This document shows, in pieces, positions 52,694-64,000 of a stretch of 64,000 nt of DNA (within the stretch, counting starts at the first letter, position 1; every line of letters starts with the position of its first letter). Source of the DNA: Scenedesmus sp. ARA3 (lineage: Eukaryota > Chlorophyta > Chlorophyceae > Sphaeropleales > Scenedesmaceae). Below the pieces are notes generated by a model, which worked only from the letters and a program-made list of their open reading frames with translations, was not told the DNA's origin and searched no databases. Both the position numbers and the translations under genes were made by a program. The stretch lies in the NCBI GenBank assembly GCA_004335835.1, contig RWJK01001982.1, positions 159,567 through 223,566 of the forward strand, in the 5' to 3' direction.

Positions 52694-55320
52694 AGGCGTG
52701 TGGGTGACCCCATTGGTGACGTGGACCAGGGCCCCCAGGTGGACCAGGACCAGTACAACAAGATATTTAACAACACCACTGGGCTGCTGCTGCTGCCGCT
52801 GCTGCTGCCGCCACCACTGCCACTGCTGCTGCTGCTGCAGGCGTGTGGGCGACCCCTTTGGTGACGTTGACCAGGGCCCCCAGGTGGACCAGGACCAGTA
52901 CAACAAGATCCTGGAGTACATCGACCACGGCAAGAACGAGGGCGCCACACTGCAGTGAGTGCATTGAATACCACTGCTATGATATCAGTAAACACATGAC
53001 ATAAATCACAAGTAGTTCAAGACCAGTACACCAAGATTTTGATGGAACACATCGCTCATCGCCAGAACCAGGGCGCAACATTGCAGTGAACATGATTTGG
53101 GGGGAATTGTGGTGCAAAGGGCAACTGACAAGGACACTTGTCGTTCAGCTACTTGCAAGTAGTTATGACACGACCAACCCTACAATGGCTGGCTGCAGGT
53201 GTGGCGGCAAGGCACGTGCGGGCAAGGGCTACTACGTAGAGCCCACTGTCTTCACAGATGTGAAGGACAGCATGAAGATCAGCAGGGAGGAGATCTTCGG
53301 GCCCGTGCAGTGCATCAGCAAATGGAGCAAGATGGACGAGGTGGGTCCAGGGGTTGCAAGGCAATGTACAGAGTTGTGCTTTAAAGGTGTGGTGTCAGCA
53401 GCAGCATATGCAATATTAGAAAGTGGTCCAAGCTGGAGGGGGTGGGTTTTAGGGGCTGCAAAGGGTTGCAAGGTTTTGACAGGTTTTGGAGGTGGCGTGT
53501 GAAGGACAGCATGAAGATCAGCAGGGGGGAGATCTTTGGGCCGGTGCAGTGCATCAGCAAGTGGAGCAAGATGGACGAGGTGAGGGGCTTAGTGGTTTGC
53601 AATGGCAATTTTGTATTGGCTTGTTTTGTATCTGATGGGAGTATCTGATGGGAATGTTTGAAGAACAGCATGAAGGTCAGCAGGGAGCGGGCTGGACCAG
53701 TGCAGTGCATCAGCAAGTGGCCCAAGATGGACAATGTGAGGGGTTCTGGGACTTGTTTAGGGTGTTGGTTTGAATTTGCATGGACAGCATGAAGATCAGC
53801 AGGGAGGAGATCCGCGCAGTGCATCTCGAAGATGGACGAGGTGGGACTGGGATTTGGGTGTTTTGGTTCAAAGATCCTTACAGCCAGGATTGTAGGTGGC
53901 AGGCCTGCTGGGGCATGTGCCTGGGCTTGGAAGCAGGCTGGCAAGAGATAGCATCGGAGATGGCCATGGCGTGTGCAGCTGTGGTGGTGTGTTACAACAG
54001 GGTGACCAGCAGCAGCTGCTGCGTGGCAGATGCGGGGGCTGCAGCTGGCAGCATGGTGCACAGCAATGTTTCCCTTGTAGTTGCTGCAAAAAAAGTAGCT
54101 GCCGCAAGAACAGTCATTGTCAGCAAGTACCCCTTTTTGGACAGCAACGCTAAGTGCTTGTCAACTTCCTGCGTGTGTCCCGTTTGCAGGTCATCCAGCG
54201 CGCCAACAACAACGCCTACGGTGAGGCAGCAGCAGCAGCAGCAGCTGTTGGCTTGAAATGTAGAACGTTGTGTAGGCAACGCCCATGCACATCGCAGTGT
54301 GGCAGCACCATGCGATCACATAACTTGTTATGCAGAATGCAGTACTGCAGTCATCACTGTCCACAACACTTGCGTATCTGTCGTACCCTGCTGCTTTTGA
54401 ATCCTTGCTCATCCAGCGCTGCAATTACATGCGTCCTTTACTTTCCGCTTCTGGTTCTGCTGCCTCCTCTGCTGCCCCTCCCTCAGGCCTGGCTGCTGGC
54501 GTGTTCAGCAACAACATTGATGAGGTCAACACACTGTCCCGCGGCATCAAGAGCGGTGAGCGCCAGCAGACAGTTGCAGCAGCGCAAGCGCTGAAGGCTG
54601 CTGCACGGCGTTCAGCGACATGAAGAACTTGGTGACAGCTTGCTGCCAAGACACAGCCACTGTCAGGATGTGGCAGCAAGCGTCGGCGTTGTGCTGCATC
54701 AGGCCGCTGTTTGCGCTGTCTCAGAGTCCACAGTTGTCCACAGCACACGCACTCAGTGAGCACGTAGGTGCAGGCTGTTGGCCAGCAGCTGCCCAGCCTA
54801 CAAAGCGGAGCATACTCTGCTACTTTCTGTGCAGCGCAGCACACCTTGCATTGCACACATTCTCCCTGTCTGACTGTCTGCACTCCACCTCTGCTGCTGT
54901 GCTTTTAATGTGTGCAGGCACGGTCTGGGTCAACTGCTACAACCTGTGAGTGGTGCAGCAGCAGCTCAGCGCTTGCTTGCATTTGCGCCGCCAGACAGCC
55001 GCATGAAGCATGCGACCGTTGATGCAGTGTGTGATGCGAGTGTGAGTGGCAGCTGCTGCAGCAGTGCATGTGCCACCAGCCGACCATCTGCTGCAGCCAT
55101 GTGCCTAAGGAGCAGTCTTACTTTCAACGCAAACAGTGCTATACAGACGCTCCTGCATAGCTGTCGGCTGCTCCTTCCTGCCGCGTGCACCCAACACATC
55201 AAACAACCTGTCAATGCACCTCGTAACACCCCCCACCCGCCGTCCACTTGCTGCAGCTACGACAGCGCGGTGCCGTTTGGCGGCTACAAGGACAGCGGCC
55301 TGGGCAGGGAGAAGGTGCGC

Positions 55321-56145: not shown

Positions 56146-58027
56146 GGGGCGAGGGCCTGCAGTGCATGCTGTGGAGGCGCTTCACACACTCTCAATCTGA
56201 AGGCGCATGGGATGATGCCCTGTATGCTGTTGCGCAGGCACCGCGCAGCATGTGTTGACACAAAGTTTTGGCTCGCAGCTGCATAGCTTGCAGTGAGGTT
56301 GTTGGCTACAGTTGCGCACCTGACCAGTGTTTGTTGAGTTGCCAGCACATTGCATATGGATGATTATGGCTGCTTGTTTGTGCTTTGACAGTTTGGACTG
56401 TGCACGGTGCATGCTATGTGGTGTGCCGCTCGCGCATTGTGCAGCTGTCATATACGTTGACCTTCGGTCAAAGCTTGTTGTGGCTTGTTGGTGAGCATCG
56501 CTGCTGTATAATACTAGGGGAGATTTTGAGGCTGCCGCTTTGCAGCCGCCGCCCTTTGCCCATCTAAGAGGAGGCGGGGCGCCTTCTTGCAGCAATTGTG
56601 AGTAGTATCATCACAGCAGTTTTTAAAAGTTGTTGAACGTGAGTGCAGTGCCAGGTGTGGCATGCGCAGCTGAGCAGCAGCATTGCCGGTGATCTCCGCT
56701 CGCACTTCAGCTTGTCGTCATGCTCATGGCGTGCTATTTTGTTGTGTATCAAGGGTATGCTGTCGCCTTTGGCCTGCAGTCTTGCCTTTGTATGTAAGCC
56801 CATGTTTGCTAGAAGCATGTATGGTTGCTTGTTGCGGCTGCGGTACGTGGAGCCGCTGCTATAGCCGAAATGGCGGCTTTATTTTTGATAGTTAACCTTG
56901 GATCATTCTGCTCATAGATGCGCCTAATGCAGTGCATCCCAGGCACGTTTGTTGTGGGTGGTGCGCGCTGCATTGAGGCGTCTGGCGGTGGCTGGGGTCA
57001 GCATGCCTGCTACAGTTTTTGTAACCGAAACCCCGTATGGCTTGCTTGGGTGATCTGGTTGGCTCCCTGCGGTTGTGATTCAAACCTTTGTGGCACTATT
57101 TTCAAACATGTTATCCACCCTGAGGGCGAGTCTGAGTACACCAGGTTGGCTGTTTGGTGGTCTGGGCTAGGTGCCTAAGCTCCAGTCAGTTCCCCGGCGG
57201 CTGACTGCAGCTCACCTCAGCTACCAGCACTTATGTAATGTGACATGCCGCGGCGGCTCTTCGCTGCTCTAGCTCAGACCAGAGGATGAAGATATGAGCA
57301 TATGCAAAACTCAATGGAGTCCTTAGAAAAACTTGTCCTGCTCTGCATTTGGCTGTGGCTTCGACCTCCGCAGAGCACCGTGATTGTTGAGGTGGAACTG
57401 TTACATTTCATAGACATGAGCAACTGATGGTACGCGCTGCTGCCACCCTCGCTGTGCTTTTAGCCTCCGCCCAGCTGCTGCTTCTGCGCACTGGGCAGCA
57501 GCTAAGAGTGCATGCACACATGCGCACCTGAATCAAATAGGCCCCCGCCAAAACCCACAAACTGATGCTGATACAAATCTTGACAACACACAACCTGCTG
57601 TTACTGCTGGATACATACATAGCTTGATAATATACAAGGTTGCCCACAATACGAATCCAAGCTGTCACTGCTGTCGCTGCGGCTGCATGCGCACACCTCA
57701 CCACGCCATGCCATGTCAGCCGTCTGCTCATCATCATGTTACCCATCATGTCAGCCGTCTGCTTGTCATCATGTTACCCATCATGTCGGCCGTCTGCTGT
57801 AGCTGGCGCTGGGTCACCAGCCGCACTGCTCCTCAGCAAGCAGCACCAGTCAGCACTGCAGCACCATTTGCTCTGCAGCCAGCAGCGCCGCAGCCTCCTA
57901 CGACATGCATCCTGCCCTGCCCTGCTGCTGCCTCCTGTCGCTGCAAACGTGCCTCCTCAGCAGCAACAACCTCCTTGTTCTCTGTTCGTACACACGAGCG
58001 GCAGCAGCAGCTGGCGAGTGCTGCTGC
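55997..58027. other. Convergent 3' flanks of ALDH and the ubiquitin-like gene
   Basis: No coding exon recognised. TGTAA at 56793-56797 and 57020-57024 (+) are candidate ALDH poly(A) signals. TTACA at 57401-57405 is the candidate for the minus-strand gene. Confidence 0.5.
57401..57405 (-). terminator. Candidate TGTAA signal of the dicistronic transcript
   Basis: TGTAA on the minus strand, about 620 nt after the ubiquitin-like stop codon. Assigned by motif and position only. Confidence 0.4.
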
Positions 58028-59132
58028 TTATAATGTCAATGCTGCCGCCGCTGTCGCCTGCTGCACCAGCTGCTGCACCCGCTGCTGCACCAGCTGCAGC
58101 AGCTCTGAGCCGCACACGTCAACCGGCACTGTCAGCTGCAGCTCGCCAAGCCCTGGCACTGCCACGGACACCTGCAGTGCAGCGAGTGCAGCGCAGAGAT
58201 AGCATTGAGCATTGCGCTTTGCAACTTATCTACAACACAACAAAATAGAACGCTGCCCAGCTGCATGCGTGCATGCACAATCACACATAACACCTGCAGC
58301 ATCATTTAGCAACGAAAGCTGTCAAAAAGCAGTCATGTGCTCATCCTGTGGTAGCTTATACCGTCTTAGATGGTGCCAGGGCCCACATGCCATTATCCTT
58401 TCACATAACAGCACAAGCAACAGCAGCACGGACACTGACACTGGACACCTTGACACATAGCTGTTCAACTCCCTGCCCTGCTCTTCACAGACGCATGCAT
58501 ACCTCTGTGTGGGTGCGTGGCGCTGCGCTCATGTCTACGTTGTCCTGGCGCCCGCTGGTCTGGTGGTACATGCCGCCACGCAGCCGCAGCACCAGGTGCA
58601 CCTTGGGCACCTCGCCCCGCCCCTGCGCTGCCAGCTCTGCTGCTGCGCTTTCTACGCCATACTCGCTCATGGTGCGGCCGTCCTCCAGCTGCTTTGAGTT
58701 GAAGATCAAGCGCTGCTGGTCAACAGGGATGTCTGCAGGGATGAAGCCGGCATATGGCAGGTGATCAGACATGCAAGGGAATGCAATTTGTCAGGCACAG
58801 CCTGCAGCAGAGACATGCTCCTCATGTGTGTGCCACCACATGGCAGGTAGTCAGACCCGTCGGGATGTTGTGACAGGGTGCGTGCAGCGCAGCTCAGGGA
58901 CGTCAGCGGCTGTATGGCAATGCTGTGCAGTGCTGCCTGCAGGAAATCCTGAAGAAACATTACGCTAGATTGTGAAAATTTATGACAGGTCCCTTTACGA
59001 GGTCTAGCTGTGCGCACCTTCTGCATCCTGCACCATCTCCTTGAGCTCCGTCACGAGTGTGTCCCCGCGCACTTTGAAGGGAATCGTCTTGCCAGTCAGC
59101 GTTGAAACGCGGATGTCAAACGCTGGCATCAT
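58028..59132 (-). CDS. Ubiquitin-like protein with LRLRGG and C-terminal extension
   Basis: Exons on the complement: 59132-59018, 58732-58503, 58171-58028; 489 nt, 162 aa, phases consistent. Residues 3-92 align with ubiquitin: [37 protein letters not shown], then [10 protein letters not shown] ~15-residue Ala/Glu/Gly-rich insertion (about 68-82) splits the last loop. After the Gly-Gly comes a 70-residue tail ([13 protein letters not shown]..., later Gln-rich [12 protein letters not shown]). Proteolysis after Gly92 would release a conjugatable modifier, but Lys48 and Lys63 equivalents are not clearly kept, so it is a ubiquitin-like protein and not ubiquitin itself. Its ATG lies only 12 nt after the stop of the ORF at 59145-59757 on the same strand, implying a shared mRNA. 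Confidence 0.88.
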
Positions 59133-59144
59133 GCTGTCAGCTGC

Positions 59145-59757
59145 TCAGGCCTTCTTGTACGCCATCACATTCAGCAGTGGCTTGCCAACCAGGCTGCTGA
59201 GGTCTGCCAGGGGCGACAGCTCATCCGTGCGGCGCAACAGGCAGTCCATGGGGTGCTGCTTGTACAGCTGTCCTGCAAGAAGATAGAACAGCTCCACACA
59301 CCTGCTGCTGTAGGGGCACAGTCCCACATCGTTTCCCACTTTGGTAAGTGTGGGGCCATAGACCTGGATTGAAGCAGGGCATCCTGCAAGCACACGGCAC
59401 AGCAGTGGCGTCAGTAAGCGCTTACCAACATCAAGCTGCGCGTCATACTCTGTGAGCTGAAATAGCAAAAGGCCATAGGTGCCTCGTACTGTTGCAGCAT
59501 CACTACAGGCAGGCAAGCTGTGGTGGGTGGTAGGAGCATGCTGCCTGTTGCAGCTGCTGTTGCAGCAGTGTCTGGGTACTGTGCAGCGGTGAATGTGCAG
59601 GAGGCAGCTCACCTAGACTGTTCAGCACGCTGTTCTTCACGTCCGCCACTGTAGCGGGGCTGCCAGACGAGGAGAGCTCCAGCTGACAGACGGAGCTGGT
59701 CCGGTGTCCCAGCTGCCCGAGCTCCTCAACCCGAAGCTCGTAGCTGAGAGCAACCAT
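59145..59757 (-). CDS. Upstream ORF of dicistronic locus, unknown protein
   Basis: Exons on the complement: 59757-59613, 59488-59426, 59272-59145; 336 nt, 111 aa, phases consistent. The start is MVALSYELRVEELGQLG and the end LVGKPLLNVMAYKKA. I do not recognise the family. The alternation of strands and the segment SPATVADVKNSVLN ... LADLSSLVGKPLLNV loosely recall a beta-grasp (ubiquitin-like) pattern, which is only a guess. The last intron (59273-59425) could alternatively begin with a 42-nt in-frame mini-intron. The exon 2 acceptor was chosen by phase. Its stop TGA is followed by 12 nt and then the ATGATG of the ubiquitin-like ORF. Confidence 0.7.
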
Positions 59758-60108
59758 TCTCGTTATCTCGTCAGCGCGCTGCGCTGGAGTGCTGCCGGAC
59801 AGTTAGGGCGATTGCTGACACTGCCAGGTCACGCAGAAGCCCGGTGGCAGCGGCAACAGCAGCCAAGAACAAGAGCAAACAACAGGAGATTGCTGCCGTA
59901 GTGCGTCTCGTCGGGAAGAGGTGGAGATCGTTGTGTCACTGCGGACCGGTCAACTGTTCCGAGTCTTCAGGTTCGAAACATATCTTCTTGGACGGTGACA
60001 GCACAGCCAAGCCTGTCCCAAGAGCAACGCAGCCAAACAAGGTCAGCTGAATTCCATGCACCCACGACAAGCCATGGGTAGCTAGGATCTGCCTGATATG
60101 AAACCATC
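59758..60108. promoter_or_regulatory. Compact divergent promoter region
   Basis: 351 bp separate the start codons of the dicistronic locus (-) and the selenoprotein gene (+), so both promoters and 5' UTRs must fit here. No TATA box or known element was identified. Confidence 0.6.
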
Positions 60109-60112
60109 ATGA
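60098..60112 (+). promoter_or_regulatory. Four-codon uORF overlapping the selenoprotein start
   Basis: ATG at 60098 opens M-K-P-S-stop; its TGA (60110-60112) overlaps the main ATG at 60109-60111 as ATGA. If transcribed, it could reduce or couple initiation at the main start. Confidence 0.5.
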
Positions 60113-62516
60113 AGCCAAAAGCCGAGGCCGGTGACTTCGCAGTAGCAGCTGCTATCGCTGCAGATATCGCTGCTCACACCGCGCCAGAGAGTCCTGCTAT
60201 AGCAACAACATGCGCTGGGGATAGCGTTCAGCTGCTGCAGCAGCAGGCAGCACAGCAGAGCAGGGCACAGGTCTCTGGCCGTGGGAACAGCAGCAGCGAC
60301 GCAAATGCTGGTGTTCTGAGGCAACAGCATGCTGAGGAGCATCAGGAACAGCAGGAGCGCAGCCAGCAGCACCAGCATACAGACAAGGATCAGGACGCGG
60401 AGGCAAGGGCGACGCAGTTGCTGTTGCAGGTCCGTGCGCTTGCAGGAACCCACTACAGCAGCTGGGGCCAAGAGGCTTGGGCTGCAGTGCTGGCCTATGA
60501 AGACACACTGCGCCTGAGCCCTGAAACACAGGCAGCATACGAGGCAGCCGAGCAGCACAGCAGCAGCATCGACTGGCTGGAGGTGACTGAGGGGCTGCAG
60601 CGGCGTGTCCTGGCTGAGGCAGGGCTGTCCAGCAACCAGATGAATGCAGGACTGGCCACCATGCGAGGGGCACCTTACAGGTGAGATATGCAATCGGTCA
60701 GCAGTGCTGCTGGCTTCAACTGGGTGCTGTTGGATCTGTCCGGTAGATACTTGGTTTGGCGGTCAGCCCACGCGGCTGTTTGTGAGCAGAGGTAGTTGGC
60801 ACGTGCATGCATCTGCTGCTGGCAGCATGCACCTCCCTTCGCCATGCCCACCTGCCTGGGTGCCCCGTTACACTTGCACCTTGATCACCTGTGCATCCCA
60901 CTGAATACCATACTGTTATCCGTATACGCTCTGCTGCATGCCCAGAGTCCCACAGATCAAGCCGCTGTGCACCCTGAGGATCCCTGCTTATCACTCCGCA
61001 TGCATCTCTGCTGTGTGTGCCGCCATATGCCCAGGTTCCCTGAGCTCAAGCTGCTGTGCATCCACACCTCATCATGCCCCTCTTGCTGCCTGCAACACCT
61101 TTTAACCTGATGCCTCTGCTTGTCACTTTGCACTGTATGATATCCGCTGCATGGCCAGGTTCCTTCCCAGGCTGAAGCCGGTGTTTATCTACCACCGCCA
61201 CCAGCCCGCTGCTGCATGTGCACTCCGAATGCCTTTGCTTCTGACTCTGCGCTGCGAGCGTGCGTCTCTGCTGCCTGCAATGTTTACGCAGGTTCCCTGA
61301 GCTGAAGCCGCTGTGCATCTACCACCGCCACCAGCGCGCCACCACAGGCCCGCCAGTGGGCAGCAGCATCCCGCCTGACCTCTCCCTGGCGCTGCCGCAG
61401 CATTCCTGCAAGCGCGTGCGGCTGCTGGACTGCTTCGAGTCACCGCAGCAGCAGCTGCTGGTGGTGTTTGCAGGCAGCTACTCCTGACCCCCGTTCCGGG
61501 CCATGGTTCCGGCCATGGCTGCGCTGAAGGAGAGCTTTGGGGAGATTGCGAGCTTTGTAACAGTCTACGTGGCGGAGGCGCATGCAGGTGAGGGGACCAA
61601 CTTTATTCAGGCTGGCTATGGATTGTGGTGAGGGGATGCACTGGGCTGGCCAGCTTTGGGACAATCTACGTGGCAGAGGCGCATGCACAAATTGTGGCAG
61701 GGTGGGCGATGGCTAAAATCTTCATGTGCGGCTTGGGAATGCTGCTGCATGGCGTTGTACGTGGCGGAGGCAGGTACTCGTACACTGCGACAACGTCCTC
61801 TGCCTGACAACTCCACTGCCTGACACCTGCTTGTTCGTACCACTGCTTGCTTCACCCATGCAGAGGACGAGTGGCCCATCCGCAGCAGCCGCTACAACGG
61901 CAGCAGGGGCCCGGTGCTCATCAACCAGCACAGGAGCACAGCAGAGCGCTGCGCTGCTGCAGCTGCCTTCGCAGCAGACTTCGGCATCACCATGCGTGTG
62001 CTTGTGGACCCAGTGCCTGGAGAAGAGCAGCAGCAGCAGGAGGAGGCTGTGGCAGGTCCTGAGGATGGCCTGACAGCTGCAGCAGCAGCGACAAAAGTGG
62101 TGGATGGTCAATCTGAGGTGCCAGTTGTGTCACAGCAGCAGCTGCAGGACAGCAGCAGCGCTGCAGGAGCACCTGCTGACAGCAGAGCAGCTGCACGTGA
62201 TGCTGCAGCAGCAACGATGGCAGCGGCTGCAGCAACTGCAGCAGGCTGCCGCAGCTGTGTCGGCCCTGACAGCAGCAGCAGCTGCAGCATCAGCGCTGGC
62301 AGCGGCAGCCGCCGGGTGATTGGCTATGGCAGCAGTGGGCCGTTTGATGCTGCTCTTGCACCCTGGCCGCTGCGGTTTTATGTGCTGGACCGCGCTGGCG
62401 TGCTGCTGTACAAGGCTGATCCAAAGGACTGCCAGTATGACATGTTTGAGCTGTGGCAGTGGTTGGAGGAGCGGCAGCAGGAGTCCCAGCAGCAGCAGGG
62501 TGCAGCGGTGCTGTAG
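60109..62516 (+). CDS. Deiodinase-like selenoprotein (in-frame TGA read as selenocysteine)
   Basis: Thioredoxin-fold protein of the iodothyronine deiodinase family. Exons 60109-60680, 61292-61587, 61864-62516; 1521 nt, 506 residues, phases consistent if TGA 61485-61487 is read through as Sec256. The active-site context AGSYS-U-PPFRAMVPAM matches the metazoan GSCTUPPF motif. Then come ASFVTVYVAEAHA (family YIEEAH), EDEWPI (family SDGW), VLINQHRSTAERCAAA (family QHRSLEER), MRVLVDPV, and after a long insert APWPLRFYVLDRAGVLLYKA (family PERLYVL). Residues 1-~190 are Gln/Ala-rich without a membrane anchor, and ~105 residues of low complexity interrupt the domain at about 377-470, so it is about twice the metazoan length. 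A strong SECIS lies in the 3' flank. The substrate is unknown; thyroid hormone is not implied. Confidence 0.93.
60945..61215 (+). repeat. Three upstream echoes of selenoprotein exon 2
   Basis: Segments about 60945-60985, 61033-61070 and 61158-61215 copy the acceptor and start of exon 2 (CCAGGTTCCCTGAGCTCAAG; FPELKPLCIYHRHQ), each with surrounding intron text (GCATCTCTGCT). The true exon starts at 61292. Confidence 0.9.
61636..61775 (+). repeat. Two downstream echoes of selenoprotein exon 2
   Basis: About 61636-61690 copies ASF-TIYVAEAHA, and 61745-61775 copies the shorter TACGTGGCGGAGGCAGGT. The Sec codon itself is not duplicated. Confidence 0.88.
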
Positions 62517-62637
62517 GCAGCTAGTTATTTGCGTCTCGCAATGGCTGCTGCAGCTCTGGACTGCTAGTCACATATAGTCTATTGTACATTACAAGGCAAC
62601 AGGGACAGCCTTGTGCAGGGTAGGCAGCAATGCACCT

Positions 62638-62715
62638 TGCTGCGATGCATATGACGGCAGGGCCTCACAACCCAGGCTCAAGCCCTGGGTAGGCCCTGCC
62701 TGACGCACAGCAGCA
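62638..62715 (+). promoter_or_regulatory. SECIS element
   Basis: Starts 122 nt after the selenoprotein stop. The 5' quartet strand is ATGAC (62651-62655) and the 3' strand TGAC (62701-62704), giving the tandem G.A pairs. The helix between them is a perfect 10-bp stem, GGCAGGGCCT (62656-62665) with AGGCCCTGCC (62691-62700). The unpaired AA lies at 62669-62670, and a small extra stem, CCCAGG with CCTGGG (62671-62676, 62684-62689), makes it form 2. Helix I pairs TGCTGC..TGC (62638-62648) with GCA..GCAGCA (62705-62715). In eukaryotes this structure recruits SBP2/eEFSec for Sec insertion. Confidence 0.93.
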
Positions 62716-62868
62716 CAGCAAGGCTGCATCTGCTGCCTGCAGTGTGGCTATTGAGTTTGCCTCCTGTTCACCGGGGATCCGGGGGGAAGATTGCCTTCTG
62801 TTTTGGTGGATTAGGTGGTTGCCCAAAGCGCCTGTCATTGGCTCAAAAAACGGGCTGTGGTCCCGATG

Positions 62869-62873
62869 TGTAA
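62869..62873 (+). terminator. TGTAA poly(A) signal of the selenoprotein gene
   Basis: TGTAA 353 nt after the stop and 154 nt beyond the SECIS, so the SECIS would be retained in the mRNA. Confidence 0.6.
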
Positions 62874-64000
62874 CAAACAGATCGTGGTCTCTTCAAGCGT
62901 CTTTTGCTACTTTCAAGTACCCGTAATGACCTTTAAGTCATGAAGGGATATAGGGTGGTTCGCTGTCGTGTGAGGACGGTTTAGGGTATATCGATAGCCC
63001 TAGTAGCCCTAGTATGTTTTACGCGTTTCGATCCTGATATGCGTACGAAATTTGCTCTCTCTATTAATGTCTGTTTGTTTGCATGAAGCTTTTGAGCTAT
63101 GCGTGTTGATAGCGAAAGCTTGGCCCGCGGAGGGCTTGGTGTTCGCATCAGCGTCCGTCCTGCCCTGGACTTCAATGCTTTCAGCTTTGAAAGGCATGAT
63201 GCTGTTTATTCAAGCTTCATTGCAGTCGTTGCGTGTGCTGGTACTGAATGAGGAACGCACAGAGTCCGCGGATGGCACCTGCTGTCCTTGGATCATTGGA
63301 CAGCAACCGTTGGCGCCGCTGAACCATAAACCACAGTAACATGTTACTTTCACACAAAAGCGGCATATATAAGCGATTGCACGCATGTTTGCCGCCTCAA
63401 CCGCTGGTCCTATTCCACGTGGAATTGGGTACTGTATTGCACACAAGGTGCTTGCTGGGTTGCCCGTCACTGACCATCGCTTTCAAGTCGCTGTAGAAGC
63501 GCATGCAGCGTTCCTGGGCGCTCTACTGCACCTATTGATTACTGTAACTGGGTACGGCGTGGCAGTAGTGCACACGTAGTGCACACTGTGTTACATTTAG
63601 CTTGAAGGGCGGCGGTGGCGGATCTGCCTGCGATGAGCAGCACCGTGGGGAACTCCAGCAAGATGCTGGATCGTGTGTGTTTTGTGTTCAGCTTTGTCGA
63701 CTGCCTGCATTGGAAGCATACCAGCCGCTCCATCCGCAAGGCTTTGGTGTCAGCTCGGGTTCCACCTGGAAGTGGCGGAGTGCTTGGCTCACGTCACACG
63801 TGATTTAGGCGTGGTGGAAAATGTCGAGTATGTTGGTGTCAGTTTATTGTTATATCAGGGCGCAGTGGGCATTTATCGTCCATTCAACGGCACGGTTGCT
63901 GGCGTCCCCCCATTGTTAGGCCACTTGGTATTGTTGAATCGGGCGTGGCTTGGCGCACCTTGTCATGGCTTAGTGGATGAGCCTGTGGCCCTACTTTGGT

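Follow-up and report, generated by a model that had tools for sequence, protein, structure and literature searches.

A predicted deiodinase-family selenoprotein of the green alga Scenedesmus sp. ARA3 and the ubiquitin-like gene copy beside it

The gene and its in-frame TGA

A stretch of 64,000 nucleotides from Scenedesmus sp. ARA3 (contig RWJK01001982.1, positions 159,567 to 223,566; hereafter the window) carries on its plus strand a three-exon gene in which a TGA codon stands where iodothyronine deiodinases (DIO) have selenocysteine (Sec). A sequence-only reading had proposed a deiodinase-like selenoprotein here, and its start, stop and exon pattern hold: both introns run from GT to AG, the exons join to 1521 nt in frame for a protein of 506 residues, and the only in-frame stops of the spliced model are codon 256, the TGA at 61485, and codon 507, a TAG. 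A stop in the same frame lies at 60094, 5' of the ATG at 60109. The gene and its 3' element consist of the following features.

60109..60680, plus strand: exon 1, an Ala/Gln-rich N-terminus followed by the conserved N-terminal domain
60681..61291, plus strand: intron 1, GT..AG, with degenerate repeats of the beginning of exon 2 in direct orientation
61292..61587, plus strand: exon 2, N-terminal half of the deiodinase domain, including the putative Sec codon
61485..61487, plus strand: TGA read as selenocysteine (U256) in the motif GSYS-U-PPF, with a break pattern among 59 homologues
61588..61863, plus strand: intron 2, GT..AG, its junction crossed by homologue P0007 and others
61864..62516, plus strand: exon 3, C-terminal half of the deiodinase domain, interrupted by an insertion; TAG at 62514-62516
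62640..62715, plus strand: element resembling a selenocysteine insertion sequence (SECIS), form 2, with AUGA at 62651, a GC-rich helix, a CACAA bulge, a mini-stem and UGAC at 62701

Family membership is supported from several sides. The Pfam family PF00837 (T4_deiodinase) matches residues 231-338 with 59.3 bits (E 4.4e-16; curated cut-off 27), spanning U256, so that the proposed homology on both sides of the TGA is borne out, as are the motif and its position. Across the whole genome (87.27 Mb in 1567 contigs), PF00837 reports one place, this gene. A sequence search of the PDB and a fold search both put deiodinases 2 and 3 on top, the latter with a model of homologue P0013, a Cys form, in place of the window protein; peroxiredoxins appear among the thioredoxin-fold neighbours, ranked below the deiodinases. 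The genome holds 47 exon-level matches to chlorophyll a/b-binding proteins, hence the host is a photosynthetic eukaryote, and the nearest named relative in the protein search, Edaphochlamys debaryana, suggests a chlorophycean green alga. Sequence comparison thus supports a deiodinase-family selenoprotein in such a host, as had been proposed. The accompanying remark, by which deiodinases are known chiefly in animals and in few protists, falls short of their published range: a survey from 2020 that covers 137 algal species counts DIO among 42 algal selenoprotein families and states that DIO and three other families have 80% Sec forms in algae. For Sphaeropleales, Streptophyta and Trebouxiophyceae it gives 0-5 selenoproteins (PMC7539508). 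Those algal proteins share family, Sec form and algal host with the gene described here.

Homologues also bear on the exon structure. Three protein searches, the first confined to the 7995 candidates with most shared words, gave 59 different homologues (P numbers). Twelve were selected by motif pattern for the exon 1/2 junction; five of them (P0002, P0030, P0053, P0055, P0058) cross it, and the other seven leave the alignment or end just past it, at the start of the window's intron. P0001 is likewise continuous there, and the exon 2/3 junction, EAHA^xDEW, is crossed by P0007 and others. Two parts of the protein go beyond the sequence-only reading, as does the ubiquitin-like partner described below: an N-terminal domain (about residues 110-191) that also occurs in algal homologues and has no Pfam match, and a low-complexity insertion of 106 residues (341-446) that interrupts the deiodinase domain in exon 3. 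Within intron 1, the copy at 61032-61065 is 91% identical to that at the start of exon 2, the copy at 60943-60976 is 74% identical to the 61032 copy, and that at 61171-61209 matches exon 2 from 61301 on with 90% identity. The pattern looks like a tandem duplication of the beginning of exon 2 whose duplicates were later lost.

Probable decoding of the TGA as selenocysteine

The position at which relatives break off speaks for a recoded TGA. Six of the 59 homologues (P0030, P0032, P0053, P0055, P0058, P0059) end exactly one codon ahead of it, terminating in GSYS or GSFT, while 18 selected with one pattern start in the interval from the TGA position to the EAHA motif, 30 residues downstream in the window. 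Endings before and starts after the same codon are explained by a conserved in-frame stop met by mechanical gene calling, and we infer that this stop is TGA in the relatives as well; a search for their DNA in IMG/VR gave 11 pattern matches, none from a relative. Cys occupies the Sec position in two homologues, P0013 (GSISCPPF) and the bacterial-looking P0006 (GSYTCPKF). Other cases are neutral or speak against Sec: P0001 and P0002 are gene predictions from which the Sec stretch is missing, in P0045 and P0047 the alignment breaks off at FAG, probably owing to an intron, and P0009 and P0011 extend back beyond the Sec position in unrelated sequence, perhaps an intron. This one-by-one sorting leaves aside 29 other homologues.

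The SECIS-like hairpin lies 134 nt past the TAG, with its cores at 62651-62654 (ATGA) and 62701-62704 (TGAC) and the AA within the 5' bulge. The segment 62625-62735 folds at -63.4 kcal/mol (z -5.95), a value reached by none of 200 shuffles. A consensus scan of both strands of the 64 kb found this single place; however, the scan was written with the candidate known, and 50 random first-order sequences of window length gave a mean of 0.58 matches, that is, a chance match about once per two windows. The weight of the scan lies in the position and strand of its match. Rfam recognized no SECIS, neither at its gathering score for the entire 64 kb nor at E values up to 10 for 60000-64000, and the AUGA-to-AA spacing is 14 nt. 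Such a spacing is at the long end of the usual range. The claim that a SECIS follows the stop hence has fold and scan on its side and Rfam, together with the spacing, against it; we regard a 3'-UTR SECIS as supported by the first two.

The cell appears equipped for Sec insertion. The machinery search covered tRNA-Sec, SepSecS and eEFSec, with SBP2, PSTK and SPS outside it. The genome carries two identical tRNA-Sec(UCA) genes (contigs C937 and C1507), four SepSecS matches, all on one contig and one of which spans a TGA, and an eEFSec match to positions 2-50 of the 120-position domain. The identical tRNA-Sec pair may represent a duplication or two haplotypes. With these genes and the element behind the TAG, UGA 61485 would be decoded as Sec through a 3'-UTR SECIS and the cell's own machinery. 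The alternative, a pseudogene or a Cys-type gene whose Cys codon mutated to TGA and whose downstream similarity is decaying, finds some footing in the adjacent ubiquitin-like copy, where an in-frame TGA shows that decay occurs at this locus. Yet the same codon stops six homologues, exon 3 is open and 67% identical to P0007 across 249 columns, a SECIS-like element lies downstream and Sec genes are present in the genome, so that we hold this explanation to be highly improbable.

Active site, pocket and possible activity

The catalytic surroundings are those of a deiodinase. Ser167, Thr169, Tyr197, Glu200 and His202 of the DIO network are kept as Ser253, Ser255 (Thr to Ser), Tyr283, Glu286 and His288, and Sec-Pro-Pro, Trp207 and Arg225 are kept as well. 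In these residues, and in the thioredoxin fold judged from the homologue's model, the protein resembles metazoan DIO1-3 (PF00837; PDB 9h48, 4tr3). It differs from them in lacking a membrane anchor, in the replacement of Arg275, Phe258 and Glu259, in a Tyr (Tyr254) in place of the proximal Cys168 of DIO1 and DIO3, in having no Cys near residue 333, the position of the distal Cys of DIO1-3, and in its additional N-terminal domain and 106-residue insertion. The highest 19-residue hydropathy within residues 1-190 is 1.19 and gives no anchor, although an additional upstream exon may contribute to the N-terminus. A homologue in Dictyostelium, likewise a Sec relative in an organism not known to have thyroid hormones, shows 39% and 37% identity to two animal enzymes, and its SECIS is of type II, the mini-stem being long (PMC2375036).

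Arg275, Phe258, Glu259 and Asp278 are residues of the T4 pocket of DIO3 (PMC7506546). Among the 12 sequences compared for the pocket, which do not include P0002 and P0015, the Arg275 position is Pro throughout (Pro476 in the window), Phe258 and Glu259 are replaced in all, and the Asp278 position is Cys in 11, P0017 excepted (Cys479 in the window protein). These replacements, with the missing anchor and proximal Cys, count against a true iodothyronine or iodotyrosine deiodinase that would act on iodinated tyrosines or thyronines which the alga makes or imports, removing their iodine. In its favour stand the family, the Sec position, the Ser-x-Ser/Thr-Sec-Pro-Pro motif and the Tyr, Glu, His and Trp network, and we judge such an enzyme to be unlikely. 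The question of the substrate had been rightly raised; the pocket argues against an iodothyronine and does not exclude one.

Cys479 suggests another alternative, an enzyme that is a Sec-dependent peroxidase only, with a Sec256-Cys479 pair as in an atypical two-Cys peroxiredoxin. The Cys at a pocket-residue position in 11 of 12 sequences and the peroxiredoxins among the fold neighbours point this way, whereas P0002, P0015 and P0017 have no Cys479 and the deiodinase Tyr/Glu/His/Trp network is retained; we know of no peroxiredoxin that needs that network. A pure peroxidase seems doubtful to us, if less so than a deiodinase in the strict sense. What we consider probable, without great confidence, is a soluble deiodinase-family selenoprotein with UGA 61485 as Sec, most likely a thiol-dependent dehalogenase or peroxidase and not a thyroid-hormone enzyme; we favour a Sec-dependent reductase or peroxidase acting on a small oxidant or a halogenated phenolic. 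In a thioredoxin-fold domain with the deiodinase active-site network, Sec256 would attack the electrophilic halogen or the peroxide oxygen of a substrate that is small and probably aromatic. Cys479 or an outside thiol might then resolve the selenenyl intermediate, and the enzyme would be re-reduced by glutathione or thioredoxin.

Several observations weigh against this proposal, whose dehalogenase or peroxidase activity is deduced. Since Cys479 is missing in P0017, one of the 12, as it is in P0002 and P0015, which do not belong to that set, it cannot be required in all members, and the window protein, whose Cys residues are 35, 199, 230, 238, 319, 418, 421, 430 and 479, offers alternatives at 230, 238 and 319 and, in the insertion, at 418, 421 and 430. 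Lys477 adjoins Pro476, so that a shifted hormone clamp is conceivable; deiodinases 1-3 vary at the clamp, which is Arg275 in DIO3 and Lys in DIO2 (PMC11592359, PMC7506546). Loss of Arg275 alone hence does not exclude iodothyronines. The His219 position is Pro in 9 of the 12. Beyond these 12 the pocket replacements hold only in part: the Glu259 position is Val instead of Leu in P0002 and P0015, and the pocket of P0006 diverges further than in these two. The P0013 model used for the fold search has middling confidence (pLDDT 72.9), and P0013 itself has an odd C-terminus.

The ubiquitin-like neighbour and further observations

Upstream of the selenoprotein gene, and head-to-head with it, lies a second gene copy, the likely ATGs being 351 nt apart.

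57923..59757 (ends approximate), minus strand: divergent copy of a ubiquitin-like-domain gene, a homologue of the P0001 N-terminal half and, in part, of P0002

Alignment with its paralogue shows a TGA in frame at 59145-59147 and, near 58028, another stop; because of that TGA we regard this copy as probably decayed. A reading of TGA 59145 as a further Sec codon was rejected, as the second paralogue on contig C1010 has Ala there and the first has no stop in the stretch. The partnership recurs elsewhere: in P0001 and P0002 (Edaphochlamys debaryana HYH03_007430), ubiquitin-family domains precede the deiodinase half within one predicted protein each. Both share the N-terminal domain and deiodinase half with the window gene (55% and 50% identity over the searched region) and differ from it in the ubiquitin-like domains in front and in the Sec stretch missing from the predictions; annotation can thus hide this family, as these two public entries illustrate. 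P0030, which has no Pfam match of its own, runs in one frame from a stretch resembling the C-terminal segment of the ubiquitin-like gene (VPGHGELQLIVP; a weak match against 9 kb, E 2e-4) through the enzyme's N-terminal domain to the Sec codon. P0055, a complete open reading frame according to its MMETSP entry, has the N-terminal domain without ubiquitin-like domains.

A trace of the same association is found on C1010, which carries two tandem paralogues of the ubiquitin-like gene (C1010:1-9900). Following the first of them and sharing its orientation, C1010:3353-3521 is a copy of the selenoprotein 3' UTR (69.5% identical, 58.1 bits; best of 500 shuffles 34.6) and the only other match to that region in the whole genome. 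It has lost the AUGA core and folds no better than chance (z -0.55), and no enzyme exons were found in the 9,900 bases examined. The simplest history would be that an ancestral gene of ubiquitin-like domains, enzyme and SECIS was copied, after which the C1010 copy lost the enzyme and, in the window, the front half was inverted and then decayed. Whether the fusion was lost here or gained elsewhere depends on an order of events that we can only deduce, and the head-to-head arrangement may be an assembly fault at this single place. The second C1010 gene also contains the stretch EVIDLVSSEEEDD, which resembles a SUMO-interacting motif.

The fusion section of the algal survey names no DIO fusion (PMC7539508). 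Among open-licence papers we found none on a fusion of deiodinase and ubiquitin-like domains in algae, and noticed no further report of an algal deiodinase. Algal DIO selenoproteins (PMC7539508) and that of Dictyostelium (PMC2375036) have been described before; new here are the gene, including its N-terminal domain, the altered pocket in which Cys479 lies, and the ubiquitin-like fusion and its break-up. It is possible, though we lean against it, that two things hold together: that the algal selenoenzyme is a thiol-cycling reductase with Cys479 where animals bind hormone, hormone deiodination being a later re-use of the pocket, and that the ancestral form in Chlorophyceae was fused behind ubiquitin-like domains ending LRGGM and broken here by rearrangement. 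If so, ubiquitin proteases might cleave these domains off, or the domains might link the enzyme to the ubiquitin system. An algal branch with catalytic residues kept and substrate site changed makes a role before thyroid hormones testable by expressing one protein.

Other selenoprotein families gave Cys forms where an active site was found. GPX genes on C1320 and C1327 have Cys, not Sec, and for the GPX matches on C1420 and C18 the active-site exons were not found. MsrA loci on C883 and C1175 have Cys at the active site, and a third, on C357, reads SCFWG. The Rdx match begins past its active site, and Sep15/SelM had no match in a genome search of a kind that cannot show absence. The GCUG-stop pattern occurs at 62 places against 3 for the control. 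Within the window, a short coding-like stretch on the plus strand at about 55260-55316 resembles the end of an aldehyde dehydrogenase.
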